Source: Demequina salsinemoris (GTDB lineage Bacteria; Actinomycetota; Actinomycetes; Actinomycetales; Demequinaceae). Taken from it: a DNA stretch of 64,000 bases. The notes under the pieces are model-generated. The model was given only the letters and a program-made list of their open reading frames with translations, was not told the origin of the DNA and searched no databases. The translations under genes and the position numbers were made by a program. Shown here piece after piece: positions 5,160 to 36,348 of this stretch; the stretch's first letter is position 1; the number at the start of each line of letters is the position of its first letter. Where the stretch lies: NCBI RefSeq assembly GCF_000974805.1, contig NZ_BBQZ01000001.1, positions 675,929 to 739,928 on the forward strand, in the 5' to 3' direction.

Positions 5160-5163
5160 CCGA

Positions 5164-8866: not shown

Positions 8867-8921
8867 CAGATTCGCGTCACGTGATGTTCGGATCGCGTCA
8901 CTACGTTCCTGACCTGTCGGA

Positions 8922-8935: not shown

Positions 8936-8969
8936 CGAGCTGGAATCACGACCTGAAGGCAGGCAAGTC

Positions 8970-11490: not shown

Positions 11491-12200
11491 CCGACCCCGT
11501 GCTGAACGCCCTGGCCAACGTCCGCGACGTCGCCACCGCATCGTCCCTGCTCGCTCCCGGGTTCCTGTGGCGCTCCGATGCGCCCTACCCGGGCGACGAG
11601 GCACCCGAGGGTCTCTCGCCGTGGCCCCCGGCCACGGTGCTCGACCTGCGTGACTCCCGAGAGTTCAGGGGCGATCACCCGTTCGCGGACGATGCGGCGA
11701 TCCACGCGGTCCCCGTGCTCGCCGACGCCGCCTTCGAGCCCGCGCAGATGATGCGATCGCTCGCGGACCTGTACCGCGGCATGATCACCGGAGCGTCCGC
11801 CGACGCGCTGGTCCGGGTCGTGAAGGCCGTGGCCGGTGAGCCTGGCCCGGTGCTCGTGCACTGCACCGCGGGCAAGGACCGCACCGGCGTCTCCGTGGCG
11901 CTCACCTTGGCGCTGGTCGGGGTCTCCCGCGAGGAGATCGTCGCCGACTATGTCGCCACCGCGGCGAATATGCGGGGCGTCATGGCCCGCTCGCGGCACG
12001 ACTGGTCAGGCGAGATGCCCGAGCTCCCCGACGGGCTCGACCTCGAGGCGCTCATGAAGGAGATGCTCGATGCTCCGGCGGCCGCCATCGAGGCGGTCCT
12101 CGACGCGTGGGATCAGGCGGGGGGTGCCGAGCCGTGGTTCCTCGCCCACGGCGGGAACGCGACGGACGTCGCCGCGCTCAAGGGGCGTCTGCTCGGCTGA
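11487..12200 (+). CDS. Tyrosine-phosphatase-like protein (IphP/DSP family) coupled to the phn transporter, paralogue 2
   Basis: A 237-residue cysteine phosphatase with P-loop HCTAGKDRTG (C126, R132), co-linear with the protein at 6142 (shared ANLRDVA, LWRSDAP, PWPP and DLRD motifs). The ATG overlaps the phnE stop, so production is tied to the importer. The arrangement suggests that an imported phosphate ester is dephosphorylated in the cytoplasm by this enzyme, giving a phosphorus source without C-P bond cleavage. A role on phosphoproteins cannot be excluded. There is no signal peptide. Confidence 0.85.
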   Translation: MTDPVLNALANVRDVATASSLLAPGFLWRSDAPYPGDEAPEGLSPWPPATVLDLRDSREFRGDHPFADDAAIHAVPVLADAAFEPAQMMRSLADLYRGMITGASADALVRVVKAVAGEPGPVLVHCTAGKDRTGVSVALTLALVGVSREEIVADYVATAANMRGVMARSRHDWSGEMPELPDGLDLEALMKEMLDAPAAAIEAVLDAWDQAGGAEPWFLAHGGNATDVAALKGRLLG

Positions 12201-12216
12201 CGCCGACGGACGCGCG

Positions 12217-12250
12217 CGGGCCGGTCGCACCTTCGAGGGCGGCCGGCCCG
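12217..12250 (+). terminator. Candidate terminator of the phn operon
   Basis: CGGGCCGG (12217-12224) and CCGGCCCG (12243-12250) can form an 8-bp GC stem with an 18-nt loop, 17 bp after the phosphatase stop. A TAGGGT -10 for the next gene follows at 12290-12295. Confidence 0.4.
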
Positions 12251-12333
12251 TCGTCGTGTTCGGGGGATCGGCGCGCGCCTCGCGGTCGATAGGGTGAACG
12301 AGGTCCCTCACCGACGCAGCAGAGGAAGGCACC

Positions 12334-21112: not shown

Positions 21113-22690
21113 TTAGGCGTGCGCGAGGCGGCCGATGCGGGACTCGACCGCAGCGAGGACGTGACCCTCGCGGACCGCGGTGGCCGCGGCGTCGATCTCG
21201 GGGGCGAGGAAGCGGTCGGCTCCCGGGGCTGCGGCCTCGGCCACGAGCGCGGAGGCCGCGGCGGTCGCGGGGGAGGGCTCGAGAGGGGCGCGCAGCGCCT
21301 GGGCGCGAGAGGCCGCGAGCAGCTCGATGCCGAGCACGCGGGCGAGCCCGTCGATCGCCGTGCGGAGCTTGCGGGCGGCGTGCCAGCCCATCGACACGTG
21401 GTCCTCCTGCATCGCGGACGACGGGATCGAGTCGGCCGACGCGGGAACGGCCAGCCGCTTGAGCTCGGAGACGATGCCCGCGGCCGTGTACTGGGCGATC
21501 ATGAGGCCCGAGTCGACGCCGACCTCGTGCGCGAGGAACGGCGTGAGGCCATGGTTGCGCGACGGGTCCAGCATGCGGTCGATGCGGCGCTCGGCCATGC
21601 TCGCGAGGTCCGCGACCGCGATGGCGAGGAAGTCCAGCACGTAGGCGACCGGGGCGCCGTGGAACGAGCCGTTGGACTCGACTCGACCGTCGGGCGTGAC
21701 CACGGGGTTGTCGACCGCCGAGGCGAGCTCGCGGCTCGCGACAAGCCACGCGTGCGCCATCGTGTCGCGGACCGCGCCCGCGACCTGGGGTGCGCAGCGC
21801 AGCGAGTAGGCGTCCTGGACGCGCGTGCACTCGGGTCCGCGGTGGCTCGCGACGATCCCCGAGCCCTCGAGGATGCGGGTCAGGTTGTGCGCGGAGGCGC
21901 CGATGCCGGGGTGCGGGCGCAGCGCCTGGAGGTCCTCGGCGAACGGCGCGTCGGTGCCGAGCAGCGATTCGACGCTCATCGCCGCGGTGACGTCGGCGGT
22001 CGTGACGAGGCGGTCCAGGTCGGTGAGCGCGAGCAGCAGCTGCCCGAGCATCCCGTCGGTGCCGTTGATGAGGGCCAGGCCCTCCTTCTCCTCGAGCGCG
22101 AGCGGCTCGATCTCGGCCGCCTTGAGCGCGGTGGCCGCGTCCATGAGGTAGCCGTAGCCGTCGCGGACCTGGCCCTCGCCGATCGCGGCGAGCGCGACGT
22201 GCGACAGCGGCGCGAGGTCGCCCGAGCAGCCGAGCGAGCCGTACTCGTGGACGACGGGGGTGATCCCGGCGTTGAGCATCGCGGCATAGGTCTCGGCGAC
22301 CACGGGGCGCGCGCCGGTGCGCCCGGTGAGCAGCGTCGACAGGCGCAGCATCGTGAGCGCACGGATCACCTCGCGCTCGACCTCGGGGCCCGAGCCCGCG
22401 GCGTGCGAGCGGACCAGGCTGAGCTGGAGCTGGCGGCGGCGGTCGCTGTCGATGAACGTGGTCGCGAGAGCGCCGAAGCCCGTGCTCACCCCGTAGTGGG
22501 GCTGGGGGTCGGCGGCGAGCGCCTCGATGACCGCGCGGGACGCGGCCATCGCCTCGAGGGCGGCAGGGTCGATCACGAGGCGCGCCTCGTGGCGCGCGAC
22601 GCCGACGACGTCGGCGGGGGACGGGGCGCCGGAGCCGAGCGTGACGGTCGGGGCGGCCGGGTTGATGGAGGCGACGTCGAGGAGGGTCAT
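21113..22690 (-). CDS. hutH: Histidine ammonia-lyase
   Basis: A 525-residue lyase removing ammonia from histidine to give urocanate. The MIO cofactor is formed from the tripeptide in [15 protein letters not shown]; Cys-Ser-Gly replaces the usual Ala-Ser-Gly, a known variant in actinobacterial Hut[11 protein letters not shown] near residue 64 carries the catalytic Tyr. It is first in the hut operon, divergent from an IclR regulator, with the operator-like palindrome at 22745 between them. Confidence 0.95.
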
Positions 22691-22744
22691 GCGTTCATGA
22701 AACGGCCGCGCGCCTCGCTCGCGGCCTCGCTTCGTGACGGTTGT

Positions 22745-22760
22745 GTCTCATATGTGAGAC
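22745..22760. promoter_or_regulatory. Probable IclR operator between hutH and its regulator
   Basis: GTCTCA-TATG-TGAGAC, perfect 6-bp arms in the 77-bp divergent spacer, 55 bp from the hutH start and 8 bp before the regulator start. The position would allow control of both genes. Confidence 0.6.
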
Positions 22761-22767
22761 TGGTGAC

Positions 22768-23565
22768 GTGGTGGAAACGCATGAGGCTCCCGGCGGCGCG
22801 CGTCCCGCGGCGCCCGCGGTGGACCAGGCGCTCACGATCCTCACCCACCTCGCGCGCCAGCGTGGCCCCGTGACCGCGGGACATCTCGCATCGTCCCTGG
22901 GCATCCCCAGGGCCTCGCTGTACCGGCAGCTGGCCGCGATGGTCGAGCACGGCTACGTGGTCCACCTGCCCGAGGAGTCGCGCTACGGGCTGGGCGTCGC
23001 GGCGTACGAGCTCGGATCCGGCTACTCGCGGCAGCAGCCGCTCGCCCGGCTCGGAACTCCCGTGCTCGCGGGGCTCGTGGACCGCATGGGGGAGTCCGCG
23101 CACCTCGCCGTCCTCGAGGGTCGCGACGTCGTCTACATCGTCGAGGAGCGCGCGCCCCGCAGGCCGACGCTCATCACCGACGTGGGGGTCCGGCTCAGCG
23201 CGCTCTCGACCGCCTCGGGGCGCGCGATCCTGTCGGCCCTGCCCGACGCTCAGCTGCGGGCCACCTTCCCCTCGCGCGCGGCGTTCGAGTCCGCGCCAGA
23301 GGGGTCGCCGAGGTCCTACCGCGACCTCAAGGAGCTCGTGCGCGTCACCCGGCGGCGCGGGTACGCCTGGGAGGACGGGTCGGTCACCGCGGGGCTCGCC
23401 TCTGTCGCGGTGCCCGTGCGGGACCACGCGGGCTGGCCGATCGCGGCGATCGCGGTCACGTTCGGTTCCCGGCGCGGCGACAGGCCCTGGCTCGCGATGA
23501 TCGTGGAGTCCGTGCAGCGCGACGCCGCCGAGCTGGGTCGCCGCATCGGCGCGCGGCGGGCGTGA
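22768..23565 (+). CDS. IclR-family regulator, likely controlling the hut operon
   Basis: About 265 residues. The N-terminal winged helix (HLASSLGIPRASLYRQLAAM) is followed by an IclR effector domain (HLAVLEGRDVVYIVEERAP... to SVAVPVRDHAGWPIAAIAVTFG). GTG at 22768 or 22771 is the likely start; a TTG at 22741 would put the operator inside the gene. It is divergent from hutH, so it probably senses histidine or urocanate. Most characterised hut systems use HutC (GntR) or HutP instead. Confidence 0.85.
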   Translation: MVETHEAPGGARPAAPAVDQALTILTHLARQRGPVTAGHLASSLGIPRASLYRQLAAMVEHGYVVHLPEESRYGLGVAAYELGSGYSRQQPLARLGTPVLAGLVDRMGESAHLAVLEGRDVVYIVEERAPRRPTLITDVGVRLSALSTASGRAILSALPDAQLRATFPSRAAFESAPEGSPRSYRDLKELVRVTRRRGYAWEDGSVTAGLASVAVPVRDHAGWPIAAIAVTFGSRRGDRPWLAMIVESVQRDAAELGRRIGARRA

Positions 23566-23639
23566 CGCGCGTCGGAGGGGCCTGCCGCTCAGGGCGCGCT
23601 CTAGGCTCCATGCAGGGGTGACATCGATCGGGGGCTCTG

Positions 23640-24242
23640 ATGGTGCAGCTGTGGCGCGCGTTCGGCGGCGAGGTGCAATCGATGCTCGTGCTGAGCGGCT
23701 ACGCGTTCGCGCTCGTCGCGCTCGTGGTGGCGGGCGTCCCCGGTCTTCGACGGCGACCCCGGCCTGTCCTCCGCATCCTCCGCGCCGGCGGCCTTCTCGC
23801 GTGGGCGGTCTGCGTCGCGTCGGTGACGCTCACGGGCACGGGGGACGTGGGGCGGCGCTCCGTCTCGCTCGTCCCCTTCGCCGAGATCGTGGAGCTGATG
23901 ACCAACAGCGTGTGGTGGCAGGTGCCGTTCGTGCAGATCGGCGGCAACGTCGCGATGTTCGTTCCGTTCGGACTCCTGCTGGCGATCCACCCGAGGTGGG
24001 GAGTCGGCCGCAGCGTGCTCGTGGGATTCGTGATCGTGACCGCGATCGAGACCGCGCAGTTCGCGCTCGCGACCGGTCGTGTCGCCTCGGTCGATGACGT
24101 GATTCTCGCCGTCGTGGGCACCCTGCTGGGTGCGCTGCTCGCGAAGGGTGCGGTCCGGGTCGTGCGGTGGGCGAGGCCTGGCAGCACCGAGGGAAATGTG
24201 GGGACGCTGGAGAGCGCGGAGGCCGCAGCGAGCGGAACGTAG
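23640..24242 (+). CDS. VanZ-like membrane protein
   Basis: A 200-residue integral membrane protein with four or five hydrophobic segments. The VanZ signature region LVPFAEI...IGGNVAMFVPFGLLLAI, then ETAQF and SVDDVILAVVGTLLGALL, is well preserved. VanZ proteins can give low-level glycopeptide resistance but most chromosomal members have unknown function. A TAGGCT -10 at 23602-23607 and a GGGGG site precede the ATG. Confidence 0.82.
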   Translation: MVQLWRAFGGEVQSMLVLSGYAFALVALVVAGVPGLRRRPRPVLRILRAGGLLAWAVCVASVTLTGTGDVGRRSVSLVPFAEIVELMTNSVWWQVPFVQIGGNVAMFVPFGLLLAIHPRWGVGRSVLVGFVIVTAIETAQFALATGRVASVDDVILAVVGTLLGALLAKGAVRVVRWARPGSTEGNVGTLESAEAAASGT

Positions 24243-24353
24243 GGCGCGGAGCGAGGAGCCACCGCCGCGGTGCGCTGCTGTCGGGCACTGCCGAAGAGGA
24301 ACGCGGGGCGCCACGTAGACTTGTCGGGTTCCCGACGCTCCAGTGAGGTCCCC

Positions 24354-25430
24354 ATGCGCGTGCTCGCCGCCCTGTCCGGCGGAGTCGACTCCGCCGTCGC
24401 GGCCGCGCGTGCCGTCGACGCGGGTCATGACGTCACCGGTGTCCACATGGCGCTCAGCCGCAACCGGGATCTCTACCGCTCGGGAAGCCGCGGCTGCTGC
24501 TCGATCGAGGACGCGAACGATGCGCGCCGCGCCGCCGACATCCTCGGCATCCCGTACTACGTATGGGACCTGAGCGACGAGTTCCACGACACCGTCGTCT
24601 CCGACTTCCTGTCCGAGTACGAGGCGGGACGCACGCCCAACCCGTGCGTGCGCTGCAACGAGCACATCAAGTTCGACACGCTTCTCGAGCGCGCCTCGGC
24701 GCTCGGCTTCGACGCGGTCGCGACCGGTCACTACGCGCGCATCGACCTGCGCGAGGACGGCGTGCGCGAGCTGCACCGGGCCGCCGATGCTGCCAAGGAC
24801 CAGTCGTACGTGCTCGCGGTCATGGGCCCCGACAAGCTCGCCCGCTCGATGTTCCCGCTGGGCACCGTCGCCTCGAAGACCGAGGTGCGCGCCGAGGCCG
24901 CCGCGCGCGGGCTCGGAGTCTCCAACAAGCCCGACTCGTACGACATCTGCTTCGTCGCCGACGGCGACACGAAGGGCTTCCTCGAGCGCGAGCTCGGAGA
25001 GCGCCCCGGCGAGATCGTCGACCAGGACGGTGCGGTCGTCGGCGCGCACAGCGGCGCGTACTCGTACACGGTCGGACAGCGCAAGGGGCTCGGGCTCGGC
25101 AACCCGGCAGCCGACGGGAAGCCGCGGTACGTCACCGGCGTCGACACGGTCCGCAACGTCGTCACGGTCGGCCCCGAGACGCTGCTGTCGGTGTCGACGC
25201 TCGTGGGTGACAGGGCGGTCTGGCTCGCCCCGGACGTCCCCGCCGACGAGGCGACCCGCTGCGAGGCGCAGGTGCGCGCGCACGGTGCCCCGCTGCCCGG
25301 CGTCGTCACGCGTGAGGGCGACCGGCTCGTCGTCCAGCTCGACGAGCCCACCCGCGGGATCGCGGCGGGCCAGAGCCTCGTGGTCTACGCGGGCACGCGG
25401 GTCCTGGGCCAGGCGACGATCGTTCGCTGA
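24354..25430 (+). CDS. mnmA: tRNA-specific 2-thiouridylase
   Basis: A 358-residue enzyme that thiolates U34 of Lys, Glu and Gln tRNAs. The PP-loop LSGGVDSAV is at residues 7-15 and the two catalytic cysteines are C98 (NPCVRCN) and C199 (YDICFV). The start at 24354 has a TGAGG site. The sulfur donor is normally the cysteine desulfurase encoded next door; here that gene is at 6880. No operon partner is seen downstream. Confidence 0.95.
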
Positions 25431-25646
25431 CCCGCGCACGCCGCCCCGCTGACGCGCGCTCGCCTGCTCACTGACGCGCGCACGCGGGCCCGACGCCTGT
25501 CGCGGGTCGCTCACCGTCGCTTCGAGGGTGAGGTCCGCCGTTCGGGGTCGCTCGCCGTCGAGACCCCGTGCGCGGATCGTTCTCAACCTTTACAGTGGAC
25601 GTGTCAACAGGGGGAGGCGCAAGGGGCGCCGCGACTGGGGGCGATC

Positions 25647-28600
25647 GTGGTCGAAGTCGTCGAGGCGTACGCCGACACGGGTGCGGTCGCGCCCTCGATC
25701 GAGCTGTTCGAGGACGTCCGCGTCGTCCGCGACGGCACCCCCATCCCGGTCCAGGGCGACGGAAGGCGCGCCCTCGTCGCGCTCCTCGCGAGCCACGCTG
25801 GCCGCATCGTCCCCGTCGACCGGATCCTCGACGCTCTCTGGGACGACGAGCCCCCTCTCACCGCGCCCAAGATCATCCAGACCTACGTGTCGCAGATCCG
25901 GCGGCTCCTCGAGCCCGAACGTCAGGACTCCTGGCAGACGCTGCTCACGCGGCCGTCGGGCTACGTGCTCGCGCTCGAGCAGGAGGCGACCGATGTCGGT
26001 GCGTTCGAATCGGCGGTCGTCGCCGCGGTCCATGCCCGCGACGGCGCGACCTTCGCCGACGCGCTCGCGCGCTGGGGAGGGGAGCCCTACGCGGGCATCG
26101 GCCAGACCTTCGCGCGCGCGGAGGCAGAGCGCCTCGCCGGCCTGCACCGCGAGGCCCGGAAGGGGTGGTGCACCGAGCGGATCGCTGCGGGCGCGCCCCA
26201 CGAGACGCTCACCGAGCTCGAGATCCTCGCGCGCGACGAGCCGAACGACGAGAGGGTCGCAGCGCTGCGGATGGAGGCCCTGTGGCGGGCGGGGCGGCGC
26301 TCGGAGGCGTTGCGCGTGTTCGAGGAGCTGCGCGAACGCCTTGCGGACGAGCTCGGACTCGATCCCGGCCCCGACGTCTCCGCGCTGCACCTGCGGATGC
26401 TGCGTGAGGAGCTGCCCGCGCCGTCCGCGCCGCAGGCCGCGCCCGCGGTCGGGGCGGCGCAGCCTCCACGCGCGCCGCTGCCGGTCGAGCGCACCGAGCT
26501 CATCGGTCGGGAGGAGCACGTGCGGGGGCTCGTGCGGCTGATGGCGACGGAGCCGCTCGTCACGATCGTCGGCCCGGGAGGGGCTGGCAAGACCCGTGTG
26601 GCGCTGCGCGTGGCCCACGAGCTCGCCGACGCGGGAGACGCGGGAGACGTCTGGTGGGTCGGGCTCGCTGGACTGGCCGACCCCGCGGCCATCCCCCTCC
26701 ACATCGCTCGCGCGGCGGGGATGCCCCTCCAGCTCGACGGGGCGCCCGCCGAGGCGCTCGCGGCCTGGCTGTCCGCGCGGCCGGGCATGCTCGTGCTCGA
26801 CAACTGCGAGCACATCGTCGAGCCCGTCGCGCGGCTCGTGGACGAGCTGCTGACGCGATGCCCCAGGCTCCGCGTGCTCGTGACCACCCGTGTGCCGCTC
26901 CATGTCCACGGCGAGCGGCGGTGGCGGATCCCCGCGCTCGGGCTGCCCGAGGGCGACAGTCTCGAGGCGCTCGCCGCGAGCGCCTCGGGCCGGCTGCTGC
27001 TCGAGAGGGCGGGGCGCGCGGGCGAGTCGTTCGCGCCGGACATGGACGACGCCGCGCACCTCGCACGCGTGTGCAGGAGCCTTGACGGCATGCCGCTCGC
27101 GCTCGAGCTCGCGGCAGCACGCCTCGCGGGGATGTCCGCGTCCGCGCTCGAGGCGGGGCTGAGCGCCCGCTTCCGCCTGCTGACCGCGGGTGAGGTCGGG
27201 GCCCCGTCGCAGCATCGGACCCTGCGCGCGACGACGGAGTGGAGCTATCGACTGCTGGACTCGCATCAGCGGGAGCTCCTCGACCGGCTCTCGGTGTTCG
27301 TCGGACCGGCTGAGGCGTCAGCGGTGATCGCGGTGTGCGCCGACGACGTCGTGGCCGCTGACGACATCCCCATGATCCTCGCCGACCTCGTGGAGCGGTC
27401 CGTCCTCGAGCACGATCGCGACCGCTACAGCCTGCTCGAGACGGTGCGCGAGTTCGGCCGCGAGAACCTCGGGGACGACGCGGGTCGTTGGGAGGAGCGG
27501 CACGGAGCCTGGATGGCCGACGTGGTCGAGCGCGTGGGCGCGGGGGTCCAGGGGGCGACCTCGGAGTGGATCCGCGAGCTCGAATGCCACCTGCTCGATG
27601 CGCGGGTCGCCTTCGATCGCGCGCTCGCGCGCCGCGACGTCGAGCTCGCGATGCAGCTCGCGGGCCGTGGCAACTGGGCGCTGCTGTCGATCGGTCGGCT
27701 CCCGCTCCTGAGGTCATGGGTGTCGCGCTCGCTCGACGCCGCGCAGGGGCGCGAGGTCCCCGCGGTCCTGCGCGCGGAGGTCGAGCTCATGGCCGGGGCC
27801 CTCGCGGGGCTGAGCGGGTTCCCGGCCGAGGCCCACCGTCACCTGGGGGCAGCGCGGGAACGATTCGAGAGGGCCGGCGACGCGTCCCAGGTGCTGTGGG
27901 TCGACTACTGGACGGCGACCGTGCTGGGCGAGCAGGGGCGCTTCTCCGAGGCGGTCGAGCTGGGGCTGCGGGCCGCGGACGAGGCTCGGCGACTCGACGA
28001 GGGGGCCATCGAGGCGAATCTCAGGGCGGGCGTGGCCGAGGTCGCGCTCGTGGGCGCGCTCGACCCGTCGGGAGAGGACCTTCTGCTCGCCGTGGCCGAC
28101 GAGGAGTCCGTCAGAGGGTTGGCGCTGTGTCGCGGTCGCCGCTACGAGGAGGCCGAGCTTCGCCTCGAGTCCAACGCGGTGCTGTTGAGGGCCCTCGATT
28201 CGTCTGACGACGCAGCGCTCGACGAGTGCCTGGCGCTGCCGGCGCGGTGGCGCGTGTTCGGGCGCGGACCGCGGCTCGCGGTGGCGCTGTCCGCGGTGGC
28301 GTCGATCGCGTTCAAGGCGGGGCGCGAGGACGTCGCTGCCGCCCTCGCGGGCGAGACGCTCGAGGTGCTCGGCTTCCTCGGTTGGGAGGGGCCGTTGCCG
28401 GGGGTCCTCAGGGTGGCCGCGGTGGTCGGCCATCGGGACGATGCGGAGGAGTGCGCGCGTCTCCTGGGCGCCGCGAGCGCGCGCTGGTCCACGTACCGCT
28501 GGAGGCTGACGCCCGACTCGACGGCCGCGGAGGAGACGATGCGGGTGTCCCTCGGCGACGAACGCTACGAGGCGCTTCTCGCCGAGGGGCGCGCACGTCC

Positions 28601-28664
28601 GGCGGTGGTGACGGTCGAGGCCGCGGCCCGCGTGCTACGGACCGCGGCCTCTCGGGACGCCTGA
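25647..28664 (+). CDS. SARP/AfsR-type regulator with NB-ARC-like ATPase and TPR-like C-terminus
   Basis: A 1005-residue transcription factor. Residues about 17-100 form an OmpR-like winged helix (VPVDRILDALWDDEP, YVSQIRRLLEP), about 105-255 the bacterial transcriptional activation domain (ELGLDPGPDVSALHLRML), and about 285-560 an AAA/NB-ARC-like ATPase with Walker A VGPGGAGKTR, Walker B MLVLDNCEH and sensor RVLVTTRVPL. Helical repeats follow. SARPs activate promoters with heptamer repeats spaced 11 bp; such a triple repeat lies upstream of the small gene at 28678, next to this gene and convergent with it. The GTG start is the best fit for the wHTH start. Confidence 0.88.
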   Translation: MVEVVEAYADTGAVAPSIELFEDVRVVRDGTPIPVQGDGRRALVALLASHAGRIVPVDRILDALWDDEPPLTAPKIIQTYVSQIRRLLEPERQDSWQTLLTRPSGYVLALEQEATDVGAFESAVVAAVHARDGATFADALARWGGEPYAGIGQTFARAEAERLAGLHREARKGWCTERIAAGAPHETLTELEILARDEPNDERVAALRMEALWRAGRRSEALRVFEELRERLADELGLDPGPDVSALHLRMLREELPAPSAPQAAPAVGAAQPPRAPLPVERTELIGREEHVRGLVRLMATEPLVTIVGPGGAGKTRVALRVAHELADAGDAGDVWWVGLAGLADPAAIPLHIARAAGMPLQLDGAPAEALAAWLSARPGMLVLDNCEHIVEPVARLVDELLTRCPRLRVLVTTRVPLHVHGERRWRIPALGLPEGDSLEALAASASGRLLLERAGRAGESFAPDMDDAAHLARVCRSLDGMPLALELAAARLAGMSASALEAGLSARFRLLTAGEVGAPSQHRTLRATTEWSYRLLDSHQRELLDRLSVFVGPAEASAVIAVCADDVVAADDIPMILADLVERSVLEHDRDRYSLLETVREFGRENLGDDAGRWEERHGAWMADVVERVGAGVQGATSEWIRELECHLLDARVAFDRALARRDVELAMQLAGRGNWALLSIGRLPLLRSWVSRSLDAAQGREVPAVLRAEVELMAGALAGLSGFPAEAHRHLGAARERFERAGDASQVLWVDYWTATVLGEQGRFSEAVELGLRAADEARRLDEGAIEANLRAGVAEVALVGALDPSGEDLLLAVADEESVRGLALCRGRRYEEAELRLESNAVLLRALDSSDDAALDECLALPARWRVFGRGPRLAVALSAVASIAFKAGREDVAAALAGETLEVLGFLGWEGPLPGVLRVAAVVGHRDDAEECARLLGAASARWSTYRWRLTPDSTAAEETMRVSLGDERYEALLAEGRARPAVVTVEAAARVLRTAASRDA

Positions 28665-28677
28665 GCCGTCCGCTCGG

Positions 28678-28881
28678 TCAGCAGACGGTGACGCCCGCGA
28701 CCGGCGACAGGTTGTCGCACACAGGGGCGATGTCGTCGGAGCTGGCGGCGAAGGCGAAGCCGACACCCGCGGCGAGCGCGGCGGCCGCGCCGAGCGTGAT
28801 GACCGGGGTGGCGATGGCGCCCAGGTCGAACCTGAACGACGGGTAGCCCTGCGGGCTGTGGCTGAAGTTGACGATGCTCAT
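28678..28881 (-). CDS. 67-residue membrane or secreted peptide with two C-terminal cysteines, candidate SARP target
   Basis: The gene has a strong GGGGAGAG site before the ATG, supporting translation. The product has a polar start (MSIVNFSHSPQGYPSFRFD), a hydrophobic Ala/Gly-rich stretch (about 22-46, ending FAFAAS) and a tail with PVCDNLSPVAGVTVC. Cleavage after AFA would free a peptide of about 22 residues closed by one disulfide; otherwise it is a one-span membrane peptide. I recognise no family. The upstream region has three phased heptamers typical of SARP sites. Possible roles are signalling peptide, bacteriocin-like peptide or small membrane regulator; none is shown. Confidence 0.6.
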   Translation of the reverse strand: MSIVNFSHSPQGYPSFRFDLGAIATPVITLGAAAALAAGVGFAFAASSDDIAPVCDNLSPVAGVTVC

Positions 28882-28936
28882 GGCTCTCTCCCCTCGAGTT
28901 CGTGCTCATGCACGTGCTCCGAGCATGGGAGGGGCC

Positions 28937-28965
28937 GGTATACCGCTGGTATACGTCGAGTATCC
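28937..28965 (-). promoter_or_regulatory. Probable SARP box (three heptamers, 11-bp phase)
   Basis: GGTATAC (28937-28943), GGTATAC (28948-28954) and AGTATCC (28959-28965) are separated by 4 bp each, giving an exact 11-bp period. This is the form of SARP/OmpR-type operators, which overlap the -35 position. On the minus strand a -10-like CATGCT follows about 10 nt after the last repeat, driving the 67-residue gene. Confidence 0.65.
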
Positions 28966-29015
28966 GGGAGCGCGGCGCTCGTGTCCCCCGCCTCCGAGCG
29001 TGCCGTCGTCGGGCG

Positions 29016-29465
29016 TCAGCCGGCCGGTTCGAGCGAGGTGTCCTGGACGGCGACGACGTCTCCCCACGCGTCCGCCTCGCATGCGTCCGGGATCGTCATG
29101 CTCGCGGTGGGCTGGATCCAGCCGCCGCCGGCCTCGACCCAGTCGCCGATCTTGTACCTGACGCCCGCGTAGGTGAGCGTCTCGCTCGCCGCGTCCCACG
29201 CGGCGAGCGCCCGCGAGAACACAGGGAGGGCCGCTGACGACGCGTCGCCCTCGTCCGCCGCCACGTAGAGGCAGCCGTCGCGCAGCTGGAGCGTGCCCGA
29301 CATCAGCGCCTCCATGCCGCCGGAGCCGGGATCCCAGTCGTACCGAGCGACCGGGCTGTCGGACGCGTCCAGGTCGCCGTTGTCGATGGGTGCCGCGCAC
29401 CCGGCGACGGCTCCTGCGCAGGCCAGCGCGAGCATCGTCCGTGTCCCTGCAGCGCGTCGTCGCAT
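29016..29465 (-). CDS. Putative lipoprotein of unknown function
   Basis: A 149-residue exported protein. The start at 29465 gives a basic N-terminus, a hydrophobic stretch and the lipobox AVAGC (Cys about 23); a longer in-frame extension runs back through the sugar-operon promoter and is unlikely. The mature part contains two Cys and WDPGSGGMEALMSGTLQL, YVAADEG and VRYKIGDWVEAGGGWIQP, a beta-rich pattern I cannot assign. It follows the small peptide promoter region and may belong to the same surface function. Confidence 0.6.
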   Translation of the reverse strand: MRRRAAGTRTMLALACAGAVAGCAAPIDNGDLDASDSPVARYDWDPGSGGMEALMSGTLQLRDGCLYVAADEGDASSAALPVFSRALAAWDAASETLTYAGVRYKIGDWVEAGGGWIQPTASMTIPDACEADAWGDVVAVQDTSLEPAG

Positions 29466-29576
29466 GCCGACACGATGCCATGGCGCGAGGCGGTGCGGAA
29501 GGGGAGGGGCCGGGGCGGGCGCACGGACGGTGGCGATGCGGTGTCCGGCCAGTGGCGAGTGGCCGACCGCCCCAAT

Positions 29577-29742
29577 GTGAGAGCGCTCTCCGGAGCACGT
29601 GAACGCGCTCTCACGAAAAAACCGGTTGCGCGCGCAGTTTTGGTAACGATTGTGTTTCGACACGCGTATGCAAACGCTTGCAACGTTTGACGGGCATATC
29701 CCCGGGGCGTACGTTCAAGGCGGTTCGTGAGAGCGCTCCCAC
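29577..29742 (+). promoter_or_regulatory. Promoter region of the sugar importer with four LacI-type palindromes
   Basis: Four operator-like sites: GAGAGCGCTCTC (29579-29590), GTGAACGCGCTCTCAC (29599-29614), TGCAAACGCTTGCA (29669-29682) and GTGAGAGCGCTCCCAC (29727-29742). All have the CG-centred form bound by LacI-family regulators, and the AGAGCGCTC core resembles CebR/BglR-type boxes. The 334-bp spacer 29466-29799 holds no other gene. The LacI gene at the end of the operon is the likely binder. Confidence 0.7.
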
Positions 29743-29799
29743 AGAGGGGTTGGGCGTTCTCGGGAATCGTCATTGCACCTACTTCACAAGGGAGTGAAA

Positions 29800-31146
29800 G
29801 TGAGCCTCACACCACGCACCAGGAAGGCGGGGATCGCTGCGGGTGCAGCCGTCTTCGCCCTGACCCTCGCCGCCTGCTCCGGCGGCGGCGACTCCGACCC
29901 GTCGGCTTCTGACTCGGCGATGGCCGAGGGCTCGAGCAGCGGCGACAGCGAGGAGCCCATCACGCTGACGATCTCGACGTTCAACGACTTCGGCTACACG
30001 CAGGACCTGCTCGACGAGTACACGGAGCTGCACCCGAACGTCACGATCGAGGCGAACGTCGCCGCAACCTCCAACGACGCGCGCACCAACTACTTCGCCA
30101 AGCTGGGCGCCGGCGGCCTCGCCGACGTCGAGGCGATCGAGGTGGACTGGCTGCCCGAGGTCATGGAGTACGCGGACCTGCTCGCGGACCTCACGTCTGA
30201 CGACGTCGCCGGTCGCTGGCTCGACTGGAAGACCGAGGCCGCCACCGACGCCGACGGCCGCCTGGTCGCCTACGGCACCGACATCGGCCCCGAGGCCGTC
30301 TGCTACAACGCGGACCTCTTCGAGGCGGCCGGTCTGCCGACCGACCCGACCGAGGTCGCGGCCCTCCTCGAGGGCGACTGGGACACCTTCTTCTCCGTCG
30401 GCGAGGACTACGTCGCCGGTGGCGGCGGTGCCTGGTTCGACAGTGCTGGCGCGATCTACCAGGGCATGATCAACCAGGTCGCGGACGCCTACGAGGACCC
30501 GGACACGGGTGACATCATCGACATCGCCAACTCGGACGCCGCGGGCGTGTTCACCTCGGTGACCGACGCCTCGGCCGACCTCTCGGCGCACCTGTCGCAG
30601 TGGTCGGACGACTGGTACGCGGCCCTCGCCAACGAGGACTTCGCGACGATGCTCTGCCCGGGCTGGATGCTCGGCGTGATCCAGGGTGCCGCTCCTGACA
30701 GCACCGGCTGGAACGTCGCGGACGTCTTCCCCGGCGGCGGCGGCAACTGGGGCGGTTCGTACCTGACCGTTCCCGCCGACGGCGCCAACGTCGAGGCTGC
30801 GACCGAGTTCGCCGCCTGGCTGACCGCTCCCGAGCAGCAGCTCAAGGCTCTCGCCAACGCGGGTACCTTCCCGAGCCAGAACGAGGCCCTCACCGACGAG
30901 ACCGCCCTGAACGACGCCTTCGCGTCGGGTGACTCGCCGACCAAGGCCGAGTACTTCAACACCGACTCGCTCGGCACGATCTTCTCCAACCGTGCCAACG
31001 CGATCACCGTGTCGCCCTACAAGGGCACGTCCTACTTCGACGTGAACGACATCATCCAGAACGCGCTGACCCGCGTCGAGGACGGTTCGCAGGACGCCAC
31101 GACGTCCTGGGACCAGGCCCTCAACGAGATCGCCGCTCTCGGCTAA
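29800..31146 (+). CDS. Sugar ABC transporter substrate-binding lipoprotein (family 1, MalE-like)
   Basis: A 448-residue extracellular binding protein. The GTG at 29800 has an AAGGGAG site 6 nt upstream; a TTG 27 nt earlier is less likely. Signal peptide with lipobox TLAAC (C26) is followed by a Ser/Asp/Glu-rich linker and a MalE-like fold (LTISTFNDFGYTQDLLDEYT). It is first in an operon with two permeases and a LacI repressor. The operator type hints at a beta-glucoside or other oligosaccharide, but no glycosidase is linked. The ATPase subunit must come from elsewhere, as is common for MsiK-type systems. Confidence 0.9.
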   Translation: MSLTPRTRKAGIAAGAAVFALTLAACSGGGDSDPSASDSAMAEGSSSGDSEEPITLTISTFNDFGYTQDLLDEYTELHPNVTIEANVAATSNDARTNYFAKLGAGGLADVEAIEVDWLPEVMEYADLLADLTSDDVAGRWLDWKTEAATDADGRLVAYGTDIGPEAVCYNADLFEAAGLPTDPTEVAALLEGDWDTFFSVGEDYVAGGGGAWFDSAGAIYQGMINQVADAYEDPDTGDIIDIANSDAAGVFTSVTDASADLSAHLSQWSDDWYAALANEDFATMLCPGWMLGVIQGAAPDSTGWNVADVFPGGGGNWGGSYLTVPADGANVEAATEFAAWLTAPEQQLKALANAGTFPSQNEALTDETALNDAFASGDSPTKAEYFNTDSLGTIFSNRANAITVSPYKGTSYFDVNDIIQNALTRVEDGSQDATTSWDQALNEIAALG

Positions 31147-31158
31147 CCACGCCGCGGT

Positions 31159-31190
31159 CCCGGGCCGCCTCCGCAAGGGGGCGGCCCGGG
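31159..31190 (+). terminator. Hairpin between binding-protein and permease genes
   Basis: Arms CCCGGGCCGCC (31159-31169) and GGCGGCCCGGG (31180-31190), perfect 11 bp, loop 10 nt, in the 72-bp gap after the binding-protein gene. It probably acts as a partial terminator or mRNA stabiliser so that the binding protein is made in excess over the permeases. Confidence 0.6.
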
Positions 31191-31218
31191 TCGCAGCGGT
31201 CACCTCGAAGGACCCCTC

Positions 31219-32250
31219 ATGACCACCACCCTGCAGCGCCCTGACCGTCCCACGGACGAGCAGCGGCAGTCCGGCGGAAAGGCCAAGCTGACCCTCCGTC
31301 AGCGCCTCGGCCGCTGGGACGTCAAGTATTCGCCGTACCTCTACATCGCGCCGTTCTTCATCGTCTTCGGCATCACGGGACTCTTCCCGATCCTCTACAC
31401 CGCGTTCATCTCGATGATGGACTGGGACCAGGTGCGCAACACCGGTGAGTTCATCGGCCTCGACCAGTTCGCGTTCGTCCTGCAGGACCGCGAGTTCTGG
31501 ATCGCTCTGCGCAACACCTTCTCGATCTTCCTGCTGTCCTCCGTCCCGCAGCTGATCGTCGCGACCTTCATCGCCGCGATGCTCGATCAGAACCTGCGCG
31601 CGAAGACGTTCTGGCGCATGGGAGTCCTGCTGCCGTACGTCGTCGCCCCGGTGGCGGTGGCCCTCATCTTCTCCAACATGTTCGGCGACAAGTACGGGCT
31701 CGTGAACTCGGTCCTCAACGACCTCGGGTTCCAGTCGATCCTGTGGCACACGGACGTGATCCCCAGCCACATCGCGATCGCCACGATGGTGAACTTTCGC
31801 TGGACCGGCTACAACGCCCTGATCCTGCTCGCGGCGATGCAGGCCATCCCGCGCGACCTCTACGAGGCCGCCGCGCTCGACGGCGCGGGAACGTCCAGGC
31901 GGTTCTTCTCCGTGACGATGCCGCAGATCCGCCCGACGCTGGTGTTCGTCATCATCACCTCGACGATCGGCGGTCTGCAGATCTTCGACGAGCCGCGCAT
32001 GTACGACACGTACGGCCTCGGCGGAGCCAACAAGCAGTGGCTCACGATCACGATGTACCTCTACAACACCGGTTGGGTGAAGTTCAACTTCGGTCGCGCG
32101 GCAGCGGTCGCGTGGATCCTCTTCCTCATCATCGTGACCATCAGCCTCGTCAACTTCTTCCTCACGCAGAGGCTCATCGCCAGCGACACCGTCGCCAAGA
32201 AGGCGAAGCCGAAGCAGAAGCAGCTCTCCGCCTCGAAGGGAGGCAAGTGA
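31219..32250 (+). CDS. Sugar ABC transporter permease (MalF-like)
   Basis: A 343-residue inner-membrane protein with six predicted spans. The EAA loop YEAAALDGAGTSRRFFSVTM contacts the ATPase. The N-terminal 35 residues are charged and cytosolic and the C-terminus is Lys-rich. It pairs with the permease gene that starts on its last base (TGATG overlap) and works with the binding protein at 29800. Confidence 0.92.
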   Translation: MTTTLQRPDRPTDEQRQSGGKAKLTLRQRLGRWDVKYSPYLYIAPFFIVFGITGLFPILYTAFISMMDWDQVRNTGEFIGLDQFAFVLQDREFWIALRNTFSIFLLSSVPQLIVATFIAAMLDQNLRAKTFWRMGVLLPYVVAPVAVALIFSNMFGDKYGLVNSVLNDLGFQSILWHTDVIPSHIAIATMVNFRWTGYNALILLAAMQAIPRDLYEAAALDGAGTSRRFFSVTMPQIRPTLVFVIITSTIGGLQIFDEPRMYDTYGLGGANKQWLTITMYLYNTGWVKFNFGRAAAVAWILFLIIVTISLVNFFLTQRLIASDTVAKKAKPKQKQLSASKGGK

Positions 32251-33104
32251 TGGCACGCCGCAAGACCTCCACGTCCATCAGCTCAGGTCGCCCGTCCTGG
32301 TTCGTCTACGGCGCGCTGGCCGTGGTCCTCGCCACCGCGATCTTCCCGTTCTACTGGTCCTTCCTCATCGGCTCGGGCGACCAGTCGACCATCTACGACC
32401 AGAACATGTCGTGGTGGCCGGGGGGCAACTTCCTCGCGAACGCGGCCGCCGTGATCTCGAACCCGGCCGTGAGCTTCTGGAAGGCGCTGTCGAACTCGAT
32501 CATCGTGTCGACGACGACCGCCGTCAGCACGGTCGTGCTGTCCACGCTCGCCGGATTCGCGTTCGCGAAGCTCCGCTTCAAGGGCTCGGGCCCTCTGCTC
32601 GTCGCGGTCATCGCGACCATGGCGGTGCCGGTGCAGCTCGGCGTCGTCCCGCTGTACATCCTCATGCAGAAGTTCGGCTGGACCGGGTCGCTCGGCGCGG
32701 TCATCATCCCCGCGCTCGTCACGGCGTTCGGCGTGTTCTGGATGACGCAGTACCTGTCCCAGTCGCTGCCCACGGAGCTCATCGAGGCGGCGCGCGTCGA
32801 CGGATGCTCGATGATCCGTACCTTCTGGCACGTCGGCCTTCCGGCGGCGCGCCCCGCGGCCGCGATGCTCGCGCTGTTCACCTTCGTGACGACGTGGAAC
32901 AACTTCTTCTGGCCGTTCATCGTGCTCGACCCGAAGAACCCGACGCTGCCGGTGGCGCTGTCGCTGCTCCAGGCGAACTACTTCGTGGACTACTCGCTCG
33001 TACTCGCGGGCGTGCTGCTCGCCACGCTGCCGCTGCTGCTGCTGTTCATCTTCACGGGCAAGCAGCTGGTGTCCGGCATCATGCAGGGCGCGGTCAAGGG
33101 ATAG
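32250..33104 (+). CDS. Sugar ABC transporter permease (MalG-like)
   Basis: A 284-residue inner-membrane protein. ATG at 32250 shares its A with the preceding stop. Six spans are visible and the EAA loop reads IEAARVDGCSMIRTFWHVGL. It forms the second half of the sugar pore. No ATP-binding subunit gene follows; the next gene is the regulator. Confidence 0.92.
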   Translation: MARRKTSTSISSGRPSWFVYGALAVVLATAIFPFYWSFLIGSGDQSTIYDQNMSWWPGGNFLANAAAVISNPAVSFWKALSNSIIVSTTTAVSTVVLSTLAGFAFAKLRFKGSGPLLVAVIATMAVPVQLGVVPLYILMQKFGWTGSLGAVIIPALVTAFGVFWMTQYLSQSLPTELIEAARVDGCSMIRTFWHVGLPAARPAAAMLALFTFVTTWNNFFWPFIVLDPKNPTLPVALSLLQANYFVDYSLVLAGVLLATLPLLLLFIFTGKQLVSGIMQGAVKG

Positions 33105-33185
33105 TCCGGTGATCGCTTCCTCGTTGGTCAGGCGTGGGGCCTCTGGAATCATGACCCCATGCCCGACCCCGGAGAAGAGACCGAC

Positions 33186-34196
33186 ATGAGCGCCGTGCGT
33201 CACGTGGCGCCGACCCTCGAGATGGTGGCCGCGCGGGCCGGGGTGTCCCGGGCGACCGTCTCGAGGGTGGTCAACGGCTCCGACAAGGTGAACCCTGCCT
33301 CGGTCGAGTCGGTGCGAGCCGCCATCTCCGAGCTCGGGTACGTGCCCAACCGCGCGGCACGCTCGCTCGCCTCCGCGCAGAGCCACGCGATCGCTCTCGT
33401 GGTGCCCGAGGACATCACGAGGTTCTTCGGCGACGTGTTCTTCGCGTCGATCGTGGCGGGCATCAACGATCGGCTCGAGCAGTCGGACTACGTCCTCAAC
33501 CTCATGGTGGCGAGCTCCGACCCTGGTGCGAAGAACTCCCGCTACCTCATGGGCGGCGCCGTGGACGGCGCGGTGGTGGTCTCGCACCACACGTCGGACC
33601 ACTTCCTGGAGCGCATCGGCGACGCGATCCCCCTGGTCTTCGGAGGCCGTCCGGGCCTCGACAAGATCGACACCTGGGTGGTCGACGTCGACAACGAGGA
33701 GGGCGGCGCGGTCGCGGCCTCGCGTCTCGTCGAGCGCGGCTGCAGGCATGTCGCGACGATCAGCGGCCCCACCGACATGCAGTCGGCCAACGAGCGCACG
33801 CGAGGCTGGCGCCGCGTGGTCGCTGCCGCGGGCCTCGAGCCGGGCCCCGCCATCAGCGGAGACTTCACCGCGCTGGGCGGCGCCCAGGCGATGCGCGAGC
33901 TGCTGGCCCGGTATCCGGAGGTCGACGGGGTGTTCGTCGCGTCGGACCTCATGGCGTCGGCCGCTCTGCCCGTGCTCCTGGACAGCGGACGTCGGATACC
34001 CGAGGACGTCGCGGTGGTCGGCTACGACGACAGCCCTCACGCGGTGCAGGGCCCCGTGCAGCTCACGACCGTCAAGCAGCCGTCCGAGGCGATGGGGCGC
34101 GAGATGGCCGACATCCTCCTCGACGTGCTCGCGGGCAACGAGCGCCCGTGGTCGACGATCCTGCCGATCGAGCTCGTGGAGCGCGACTCCGCCTGA
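33186..34196 (+). CDS. LacI-family regulator of the sugar importer
   Basis: A 336-residue repressor. The helix-turn-helix (EMVAARAGVSRATVSRVVNG) is at residues about 10-30, with the hinge helix and a periplasmic-binding-like sugar domain after it. The start at 33186 has GGAGA 10 nt upstream; an ATG at 33159 lacks a site. It is the last gene of the importer cluster and most likely binds the CG-centred palindromes at 29577-29742. Confidence 0.88.
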   Translation: MSAVRHVAPTLEMVAARAGVSRATVSRVVNGSDKVNPASVESVRAAISELGYVPNRAARSLASAQSHAIALVVPEDITRFFGDVFFASIVAGINDRLEQSDYVLNLMVASSDPGAKNSRYLMGGAVDGAVVVSHHTSDHFLERIGDAIPLVFGGRPGLDKIDTWVVDVDNEEGGAVAASRLVERGCRHVATISGPTDMQSANERTRGWRRVVAAAGLEPGPAISGDFTALGGAQAMRELLARYPEVDGVFVASDLMASAALPVLLDSGRRIPEDVAVVGYDDSPHAVQGPVQLTTVKQPSEAMGREMADILLDVLAGNERPWSTILPIELVERDSA

Positions 34197-34268
34197 CGGG
34201 TCGTCCGGGCGCGCCCGGGGTTCGGAGTAATGTCGCCCTCGTCCCCCCAGATCGACGAGGAGAACAGC

Positions 34269-35735
34269 GTGACGCTGGTGCTGAGGTCCGTCCGGCTCGT
34301 GGGCGGGGGAGACCTGCCCATGGACGTCGTGGTCGAGGGTGACCGCATCGCGGGGATCGTGCCGGCGGGGCAGGCCCCGACGGACGATGCGGAGGCGATC
34401 GACCTGGCGGGCCGCTGGGTCATGCCGGGTCTCGCTGACAATCACGCGCACTTCACCACGTGGGCGCACCACCTCGCGCGCCTGGACGTGTCGGGCACAC
34501 GCGAGCCCGAGGAGGCCGCGGAGCGGGTCCGGGAGGCGCTGTCGGCGTCGCCTCCGTCGGAGGCGACGTTCGTGGGCCGCGGTTTCCAGGACGCCCTGTG
34601 GTCTCGCGAGGCCACGGGGACGATGCTGGACGACGCGGCCGGCGACGCGGGGCACGCGGGGCGCCCGGTGGTGCTGTACGCGCACGACCTTCACACGGTG
34701 TGGATCAACGCGGCTGCTGCCGAGCGATTCGGGGCGCCGCACGCCGGCCTCGTGCGCGAGGCCCCGGCGTTCGCGATCGAGAAGGCCGCCGACCTCGAGG
34801 CTTCGGCCAGGGACGATGAGGTGGTCGCCGCGGCGCTCGCGGCAGCGGCCGCGCGCGGGGTCACCCGGGTCAGCGACATGCACATGGCGGACAACCCGCT
34901 CGTGTGGCAGGGGCGGTTCGCGCGGGGCATGGACTCGGTGCGGATCGTCGCGAACGTCTACCTTGAGCACCTCGGGGTCGCGGCGGGTCGTGGCCAGCGC
35001 ACGGGCGACGTCGTCCCCGGTACCGCGGGGATGGTGACCGTCGGCTCGCTCAAGCTGATCTCCGATGGGGCGCTGAACTCGGGCACGGCGCTGTGCCACG
35101 ACGCGGACCTCAACGGCAGCCATGGCCACGCGGAGTACACCGAGGAGGAGCTGCACCGCATCCTGCGGGATGCGGACGCGGCGGGCTTCACGATCGCGCT
35201 GCACGCGATCGGCGATCTCGCTGTCGCGCGCGCGCTCGACGCCTTCGAGGCCACCGGCGCCCGTGGCACGATCGAGCACGCGCAGCTCGTCGCCGACGAG
35301 GACCTGGCGAGATTCGCCGAGCTCGGCGTGATCGCGGCGGTGCACCCCGAGCACCTGCTCGACGATCGCGACGTCACCGACCGGCTGTGGGCGGGCCGCA
35401 CCCGGCGTGCCTTCCCGTACCGGGCGCTCCAGGAGGCCGGCGCGACCCTCACCTTCGGCTCCGACGCTCCGGTGGCGCCCCTGGACCCGTGGCTCGCGAT
35501 CGCGGCGGCGGTCTTCCGCACGCGCGACGGCCGCGAGCCGTGGGAGATCGACAATGCGCTGGACGTGCGCACGGCGCTCGAGGCGTCGTGGGTGGCCCCG
35601 GAGCTCGAGGTGGGTGGAGCAGCCGACCTCGTCGTCACGGACGTCGATCCGTTCGTCGCGGACGTCGAGACGATGCGCGCGATGCCGGTCGCGCTCACCG
35701 TGTGCGCGGGCCGGGTGACCTACCAGGCCTCCTAG
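34269..35735 (+). CDS. Amidohydrolase family 3 (YtcJ-like) protein
   Basis: A 488-residue metal-dependent hydrolase. The GTG start is 6 nt after GAGGAG. Metal-binding motif DNHAHFTTWAHH (about 58-69), a carboxylated-Lys region, IEHAQLVADEDLARF and GSDAPVAPLDPW place it in the YtcJ/imidazolonepropionase-like group of the amidohydrolase superfamily. Substrates in this group are N-acyl or cyclic amides and vary widely, so none is named. It stands alone between the LacI gene and a convergent TetR gene. Confidence 0.85.
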   Translation: MTLVLRSVRLVGGGDLPMDVVVEGDRIAGIVPAGQAPTDDAEAIDLAGRWVMPGLADNHAHFTTWAHHLARLDVSGTREPEEAAERVREALSASPPSEATFVGRGFQDALWSREATGTMLDDAAGDAGHAGRPVVLYAHDLHTVWINAAAAERFGAPHAGLVREAPAFAIEKAADLEASARDDEVVAAALAAAAARGVTRVSDMHMADNPLVWQGRFARGMDSVRIVANVYLEHLGVAAGRGQRTGDVVPGTAGMVTVGSLKLISDGALNSGTALCHDADLNGSHGHAEYTEEELHRILRDADAAGFTIALHAIGDLAVARALDAFEATGARGTIEHAQLVADEDLARFAELGVIAAVHPEHLLDDRDVTDRLWAGRTRRAFPYRALQEAGATLTFGSDAPVAPLDPWLAIAAAVFRTRDGREPWEIDNALDVRTALEASWVAPELEVGGAADLVVTDVDPFVADVETMRAMPVALTVCAGRVTYQAS

Positions 35736-35790
35736 AGCCCGGGTCAGGGTGCGCCGCGACGGCGGACGCGCGGTCTCCCCGTTCGCGGGG

Positions 35791-36348
35791 TCAGCGCCCC
35801 GAGAGCCCTCGCTCGAGGATCTCCCAGGCATGCTCGGCGCTCGTCTCGCGCTGCTCGGGAGGGACCGAGCACGTCAACGCCGTGACCATCGAGAGGGTCA
35901 TCACGAGGTCGTCCACGGTGACGTCCTCGCGGAGCCGGCCCGTGGCCTGCGCGTGCTCGCGCGCGGCGGTGAGCAGGACGCGCATGCGAGCCTCGAGCGA
36001 TGTGAGGCGCGGATCGTCTGGCGAGCTCGTGGCGAAGGACATCAGGGGCGCGATGCCTTGGACGCGGTGCGAGACCTCGTGGCCGAGCCTGCGCAGTGAC
36101 ATAGGGCTGTGCTGCGCGGCGAGGGTCTCGAGCTGGGTCATGTTCTCGTCGAACACGGCGAAGGCCAGCGAGGCCCTGTCGGGGAAGTGGCGGTAGAGCA
36201 CTCCCTGGCCCACGCCCGCGCGGCGCGCGATCTCGACGAGCGGCACGTCGATGCCTCGCTCGTCGAAGAGGACGCGGGCGGCGTCGATGAGCGCGCGGCG
36301 GTTCGCCGCGGCGGCGCGCGGGCCGGGGTTGGCGCGAGGGGTGGCCAT
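35791..36348 (-). CDS. TetR-family regulator
   Basis: A 185-residue repressor with an N-terminal HTH (VPLVEIARRAGVGQGVLYRHF). The mRNA is probably leaderless: minus-strand TAGCCT (36360-36355) ends 6 nt before the ATG. A perfect 10-bp-arm inverted repeat just upstream is its probable operator, controlling itself and the divergent flavoprotein and SDR genes. Confidence 0.9.
   Translation of the reverse strand: MATPRANPGPRAAAANRRALIDAARVLFDERGIDVPLVEIARRAGVGQGVLYRHFPDRASLAFAVFDENMTQLETLAAQHSPMSLRRLGHEVSHRVQGIAPLMSFATSSPDDPRLTSLEARMRVLLTAAREHAQATGRLREDVTVDDLVMTLSMVTALTCSVPPEQRETSAEHAWEILERGLSGR

Follow-up and report, generated by a model that had tools for sequence, protein, structure and literature searches.

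A large SARP regulator paired with a small peptide gene behind a conserved, predicted triple-repeat operator in Demequina salsinemoris and its relatives

The regulator AfsR of Streptomyces coelicolor and its target afsS provide a precedent for the gene pair analyzed here, which lies in 64,000 nucleotides of Demequina salsinemoris DNA (contig NZ_BBQZ01000001.1, positions 675,929 to 739,928; hereafter the window) and combines a large SARP regulator gene with a small adjacent peptide gene. As a dimer with its two copies side by side, the SARP domain of AfsR binds 11-bp direct repeats overlapping the -35 element, and it engages RNA polymerase; the last repeat of AfsR-type operators lies 8 bp from the -10 element, the other domains of the protein inhibit the SARP domain, and the inducer of the sensor domain is given there as not known (PMC10936776). 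The AfsR repeat has been reported as CGTTYATCGNN (PMC10972967). Another member, PimR, is associated with three heptamers separated by 4-bp spacers before its unique target gene (PMC5930380), and in the RRNPP family, candidate pairs are recognized by a receptor of 250-500 residues and an adjacent propeptide of 10-100 residues (PMC10075063). Our literature search, in which subscription journals mostly fell outside the coverage, found no SARP paired with a peptide or with peptide signalling. The SARP NosP is small and accompanied by modification enzymes; it differs from the present case in belonging to a thiopeptide (nosiheptide) cluster.

The window pair follows the same logic as AfsR-afsS, with a large SARP bearing STAND and repeat-like domains, a small adjacent gene as its predicted direct target, and 11-bp direct repeats near the putative -35 region (GTNNACY here, CGTTYATCGNN for AfsR) at a short fixed distance from a poor -10 element. 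It shares with PimR-pimM, a SARP-LAL pair, the arrangement of heptamers and spacers before a unique neighbouring target (PMC5930380), and with the RRNPP pairs of Firmicutes a neighbouring small gene whose peptide has a hydrophobic segment, next to a regulator with a helical, repeat-like part. At 67 residues and a distance of 13 bp, the small gene of the window falls within the propeptide range, whereas two of the seven related peptides exceed 100 residues (113 and 129). In contrast to AfsR itself, the regulator scores 133 bits against an NCBIfam equivalog cut-off of 1430 and is not an AfsR orthologue by that measure. AfsS is described as sigma-factor-like, whereas the target here has a hydrophobic segment, a distinction drawn from description; furthermore, unlike in AfsR-afsS, the target is convergent or divergent and preceded by three or four repeats, and unlike the global AfsR regulon, one recognizable site is present in five of eight genomes. 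PimR differs in its LAL-type C-terminal half, and its target pimM codes for a transcription factor within an antibiotic cluster. The regulator also differs from RRNPP receptors in its 1005 residues with a STAND ATPase and in its phylum, and peptide re-entry would be hypothetical here. Because the AfsR-afsS precedent is known, the original prediction was too strong in calling the arrangement not described: the kind of regulator, the logic of its operator and the presence of a small target next to it all have known counterparts. As far as our searches show, the new elements are the peptide family, its genus-wide pairing with the SARP through a change of gene order, and a second SARP class beside probably exported repeat proteins.

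We consider it probable that the pair acts as a switch through which a signal turns on a single small peptide, either exported or located in the envelope. Both reading frames stood as originally predicted (Table 1), and GAGGGGAGAGAGCC immediately precedes the ATG of the small gene. We searched 396 genomes drawn from the order, 44 of them from the window's own genus, with G000 denoting the window genome. At a threshold of E<=1e-90, with at most two candidates scored per genome, the SARP was found in eight of the 396, all from its own genus (G000, G028, G043, G042, G025, G008, G014 and G030, the last with two copies in tandem). A genus search at 1e-30 gave 11 of 44 genomes, from which matches in G019, G023, G024 and a second G008 locus were excluded as they began only at about residue 205. 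The synteny check proposed in the original prediction gave a related peptide gene adjoining the SARP in seven of the eight genomes. Orthologues of the window's small gene adjoin it in G028 (76%) and G043 (55%), and G042, G008, G030 and G025 have, upstream of the SARP and in divergent orientation, a small frame that encodes a hydrophobic segment and a tail resembling IAPVCDNLSPVAGVTV of the window peptide (for example, ILAPVHDVLSPIGGHVV in G030 and ILPAVHDDMSPLGGHVV in G025, with the start codons of these two picked by eye). The gene order is convergent in G000, G028 and G043 and divergent in the remaining five, and both the pairing and the operator persist through this change, the small frame of G014 excepted.

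Table 1 Features of the regulator-peptide locus (positions are those of the window).
Feature	Position	Strand	Description
Large SARP regulator	25647..28664	+	GTG start, 1005 residues; winged-helix DNA-binding domain, BTAD, STAND ATPase, all-helical (TPR-like) C-terminal half
Small gene	28678..28881	-	ATG start, 67 residues; residues 1-19 at the N-terminus, hydrophobic segment without charge at 20-48, DDIAPVCDNLSPVAGVTVC as acidic tail
Probable ribosome-binding site before the small gene	28886..28895	-	GAGGGGAGAG
-10-like hexamer	28922..28927	-	CATGCT; 9 bp past heptamer 3; [GC]ANN[GC]T there in 8/8 genomes
Heptamer 3 (register kept in 8 genomes)	28937..28943	-	GTATACC
Heptamer 2	28948..28954	-	GTATACC
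Heptamer 1	28959..28965	-	GGATACT
Neighbouring lipoprotein	29016..29465	-	149 residues from the chosen start; neighbour, not counted in the unit

Searches with the peptide itself delineated the same set. At E<=1, 33 of 47 genomes matched; three matches (E<=3.3e-16) were taken as the peptide and the remainder (E 0.004-0.87) were set aside, save those of G042 and G030 that adjoin the SARP. A profile of the seven peptides recovered these seven among the 396 genomes at E<=3.1e-16, with at most 16 candidates scored per genome; the only other matches at E<=0.001 were nine weak ones from other genera (E 4e-5 to 9e-4), set aside by their frame lengths of 199-2163 residues. With random placement, the chance of all seven peptides falling in the eight SARP genomes is 3e-14 among the 396 and 2e-7 among the 44 of the genus, figures that overstate the association, as shared descent is ignored and four members were found by looking beside the SARP.

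The second line of evidence is the predicted SARP-type operator. The three heptamers at exact 11-bp steps and the -10-like hexamer, claimed in the original prediction for the window, were confirmed and are conserved in all eight SARP genomes. Along the strand of the small gene, the common pattern comprises GTNNACY-like heptamers at 11-bp steps, 9 bp, and [GC]ANN[GC]T, the last found at this position in 8/8 genomes against a background of 1-2%. Within 150 bp upstream of the small gene, a triple at period 11 that matches GTNNACY with a score of 14-15 of 15 is present in seven of the eight genomes, and at no other period from 8 to 30 did any genome reach 14; the triple of G014 extends past these 150 bp and was found in separate operator searches. 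The summed operator score was 108, compared to a mean of 71.7 (standard deviation 2.4) and a maximum of 82 over 2000 shuffles, with the heptamer rule, the spacing and the hexamer pattern all chosen after the sequences had been seen and, for G043, which has four repeats, with the last three counted. The distance of 9 bp from the last repeat to the -10 element in 8/8 genomes depends on where the edges of heptamer and hexamer are drawn, and the start region is a predicted one. Spacing and outer bases are largely kept across genomes, while the inner bases vary: the window and G028 have GTATACC, most others have GTCGACC or GTTGACC, and G014 has GTCAACC. Where the two genes are divergent (five loci), the operator overlaps the listed start codon of the SARP gene. 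The original prediction had named the absence of the small frame or of the heptamers from relatives as its refutation; both proved to be conserved. Within the window alone, the repeats are not significant, because its 64 kb contain five separate places with phased triples scoring at least 17 of 21, the small-gene operator being one of them and being outscored by another; we therefore rejected their in-window score as stand-alone evidence.

Subsequently, we asked how often the operator recurs. With one mismatch allowed, the triple operator was found at 13 places in the eight SARP genomes, eight of them at the SARP locus, and a backward control pattern gave four matches, all in G028. It occurs once only in G000, G014, G025, G030 and G043; the five additional sites precede other genes, mostly without an assigned function. 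A two-repeat search of G000 with up to two mismatches returned three distinct places, namely the small-gene site (perfect), the operator of a second-class SARP described below, and one more, compared to one for the control. At G000:C18:108173-108190 (L148 2174-2191), GTTTACC-N4-GTAGACC is followed at 9 bp by CAGCCT and precedes a small gene. With its operator and position, the small gene is very likely activated directly by the window SARP. The claim of a dedicated regulator with a single product holds for G000 insofar as the small gene is its main recognizable target, but not for G008, G028 and G042, where further sites are present.

The small frame is coding. Between G000 and G028, its differences by codon position number 16, 3 and 21, with 0.14 nonsynonymous (dN) and 0.57 synonymous (dS) substitutions per site, and this pattern points to a coding frame under protein-level selection; comparisons with G043 are less clear (dN 0.45/dS 0.78 and dN 0.45/dS 0.64). 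These values bear on the possibility that the small gene makes no protein and that the conserved DNA merely gives rise to a SARP-driven transcript running toward the 3′ end of the SARP gene. The convergent arrangement of the window, with 13 bp between the genes, would suit such a transcript, but the codon-position pattern and the substitution rates argue against it, as does the divergent position of the small gene in five genomes, and we regard this explanation as highly improbable.

All seven peptides consist of a hydrophobic segment followed by an acidic tail with DxxS, extended to DxxSP in six; D56 and S59 are invariant in their alignment, and the proline is lost in G043. In the peptides of G000, G028 and G043, residues 1-19 carry no net charge, the uncharged hydrophobic segment spans from residue 20 to 48 or 50, and the tail has a net charge of -2 to -4. 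The G030 peptide has a short N-terminus with a charge of +2, and the tails of the G042 and G008 peptides carry two DxLSP motifs. No family match above cut-off was obtained in Pfam (G000, G030 and G008 peptides) or NCBIfam (G000 peptide), and a plasmid search left the peptide without a match. The hydrophobic segment bears out the original suggestion of an exported product, in that the peptide is likely membrane-anchored or exported. The two-cysteine tail did not hold as a family feature: cysteines are found only in G000, G028 and G043, and because they are absent from the other four members, a disulfide loop was rejected as the defining feature. In G030 (L053 11781-12029) and G025 (L050 9049-9270), another small frame lies between the operator and the peptide gene, and its stop overlaps the peptide start, suggesting possible translational coupling.

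Within the window clade, the first 21 residues of the peptide match its remainder in conservation (17 of 21 identical between G000 and G028). This conservation would fit a small protein that acts as a membrane-associated regulator and passes the SARP signal on to other genes, in the manner of AfsS, as would the shared logic of a large SARP with an adjacent small direct target (PMC10936776, PMC10972967). Set against the difference between a sigma-factor-like AfsS and a target with a hydrophobic segment, we hold such a relay to be quite unlikely, and rank it third among the roles considered for the peptide.

The product of 25647-28664 is an AfsR-type large SARP. Its N-terminal winged helix and BTAD were recognized by Pfam (BTAD, PF03704, 7.7e-23; Trans_reg_C, PF00486, 1.2e-9) and by fold matches to 8k60, 8hvr and EmbR. 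The best fold matches of the N-terminal domain were EmbR and AfsR of Streptomyces coelicolor, both also retrieved by a sequence search of solved structures, and its superposition on solved AfsR (8k60_J) gave a template modelling (TM) score of 0.85 by the target at 32% identity. The central part matched the fold of STAND proteins in a PDB structure search of the model, and its Walker A motif (P-loop), GPGGAGKTR at residues 309-317, is invariant at seven of nine positions across 18 aligned sequences; the ATPase models of Pfam matched below cut-off only. An AlphaFold2 model from 18 sequences (mean predicted local distance difference test, pLDDT, 85; predicted TM score, pTM, 0.53) shows residues 598-1002 as all-helical. 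The top PDB fold match over most of the length is a STAND-TPR protein and TPR structures are among the fold matches, with no TPR match in Pfam. A defence library gave a single weak match, confined to the ATPase part (E 0.006).

This helical half raises the alternative of a peptide pheromone loop, in which the exported tail or a fragment of it re-enters the cell and binds the helical half of the SARP, giving an autoinducing circuit of the RRNPP kind with a STAND receptor. Regulator and peptide are co-inherited, as expected of such a circuit, and the helical half is all-helical and repeat-like, with TPR proteins among its fold matches. It is also the least conserved part of the regulator, with 28-39% identity compared to 39-50% for the DNA-binding domain between the window and six SARPs (G042, G025, G008, G014 and both of G030), although in G043 it is better conserved than the DNA-binding domain (60% versus 55%). 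The second DxLSP copy in G042 and G008 recalls the internal duplications reported as frequent in RRNPP propeptides (PMC10075063), the binding of an inducer to the sensor domain of AfsR is described as an open question (PMC10936776), and a review states that the SARP NosP responds to ligands that come from a precursor peptide (PMC10972967). However, the operator occurs once in the window genome, so that a pheromone would have little else to control; neither a peptide importer nor a peptidase is among the ten open reading frames scanned around the locus; and the neighbours of the second SARP class are larger, output-like proteins of about 150-300 residues. Duplicated motifs, a helical sensor half and strict pairing keep the pheromone loop alive as the second choice, but we judge it unlikely. 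An output role is more likely and is favoured because a single operator occurs in five genomes.

Under the switch that we favour, the DNA-binding domain of the resting SARP-STAND protein would be held inactive until a ligand on the helical C-terminal half, together with ATP, frees it. Side by side, SARP domains would next occupy the three heptamers, phased at 11 bp around the -35 region, and bring in RNA polymerase for transcription of the peptide gene. The peptide would insert through its hydrophobic segment and expose its acidic tail outside the cell, or have it released there after cleavage, where it would act as the output. We infer binding, recruitment and ATP gating by analogy with AfsR; export and action outside the cell are suggested by features of the peptide sequence.

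Several observations weigh against this scheme. In the window clade, the part of the peptide before the hydrophobic segment lacks a net charge, which sets it apart from a standard Sec signal, and that segment comes after 45 residues in G042 and after 53 in G008; release of the tail is a hypothetical step that may not take place. G014 keeps the operator, while its small frame (L052 5097-5405) has neither a hydrophobic segment nor a DxLSP motif. Outside the genus, 23 SARP relatives (of 41 loci) lacked the triple operator within 500 bp of either end, a pattern also found in 0 of 2000 random strands, and a motif scan of those 41 loci and four genus loci gave no convincing small peptide. Moreover, further operator-like sites are present in G008 (one), G028 (two) and G042 (two), and four of these five have [GC]ANN[GC]T at 9 bp, as judged by eye; for this reason, a single target fails in these genomes, whose SARPs may have more targets. 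In G000, the window SARP may have a second target at C18:108173, a site that may also be due to chance, as the control gave one match too.

The genus holds a second class of large SARPs. A BTAD search gave 11 such genes, spread over nine genomes of the genus and with frame lengths of 1413-1771 residues; the three examined (two from G015, one from G000) gave BTAD, nSTAND1 and propeller-type matches, and the other eight were assigned by frame length alone. Neighbouring proteins in G015, G019, G020, G023, G042 and G009 combine an N-terminus that is hydrophobic with repeats of the type Y[ET]P[MIL]xGGxPxY, a family found in six of the 396 order genomes, all of the same genus. In G015 (L122, C19:222000-241000), tandem SARP-nSTAND1-WD40 regulators lie at 4679-9208 and 9558-13997, followed by a BTAD gene cut by the locus end; each tandem regulator has a divergent protein with a hydrophobic N-terminus, one of which repeats DDYEPMCGGVPPYAV and AYTPMPCVPEGAYG in the manner of a multi-copy peptide precursor. 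In G000, the second-class SARP (L120, C18:14000-27000) has GCATACC-gcgc-GCATACC at 6578-6620 and, in divergent orientation at 6667-7578, the gene of a 303-residue protein that contains a hydrophobic segment. The pair GCATACC-N4-G[CG]ATACC was found at 10 places in 14 genomes searched, eight of them 319-334 bp from the BTAD segment of a second-class gene, compared to one for the control; G014 and G019 have a second-class gene without a match. Away from second-class SARPs, GCATACC-N4-GCATACC precedes similar secreted-looking proteins of about 218 residues in G042 (L140 3948) and G008 (L141 2135), which are likely members of the second-class regulon. Because this class also adjoins probably exported proteins, a large SARP beside such a protein is a theme of the genus rather than a single case. 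The motif DNLSP also occurs in the repeat proteins of G015, G019 and G023; five residues shared with the peptides may be coincidence. A broader idea, which we find rather unlikely, is STAND-type-SARP peptide signalling in actinomycetes, in which the tail around APVxDxLSPxxG would be the ligand of the helical domain, encoded beside its receptor and under its control, in a genus with two receptor classes (one with DxxSP peptides, the other, nSTAND1-WD40, with exported repeat proteins).

The ten main open reading frames at 21113-36348 (E<=1e-10) comprise an aromatic amino acid lyase, an IclR regulator, a VanZ-like protein, an MnmA-type tRNA enzyme, a solute-binding protein, two permeases, a LacI regulator, an amidohydrolase and a TetR regulator. 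No modification, peptidase or peptide-transport family was found among these ten main frames. The signalling or antimicrobial role that the original prediction suggested for the unit is a hypothetical one. The adjacent lipoprotein, originally suggested as a possible part of the unit, adjoins the pair in G028 and G043, and G030 has two copies, one beside the peptide gene and one beside an mnmA-like gene. It is carried by 19 of the 44 genus genomes and was rejected as a member on its distribution: because 14 of these 19 lack this SARP and three of the eight SARP genomes (G014, G025 and G042) lack the lipoprotein, it is not specific to the pair.

Collectively, the locus presents a minimal system of one regulator, one promoter and one peptide, in which a small peptide gene would be the main recognizable target of the regulator in genomes of about 3 Mb. 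The operator rules (GTNNACY three times at 11 bp, 9 bp and a -10 element; GCATACC-N4-GCATACC for the second class) would allow targets to be predicted genome-wide. The system would also allow the peptide to be tested directly as output or as ligand, and with it what such activators sense.

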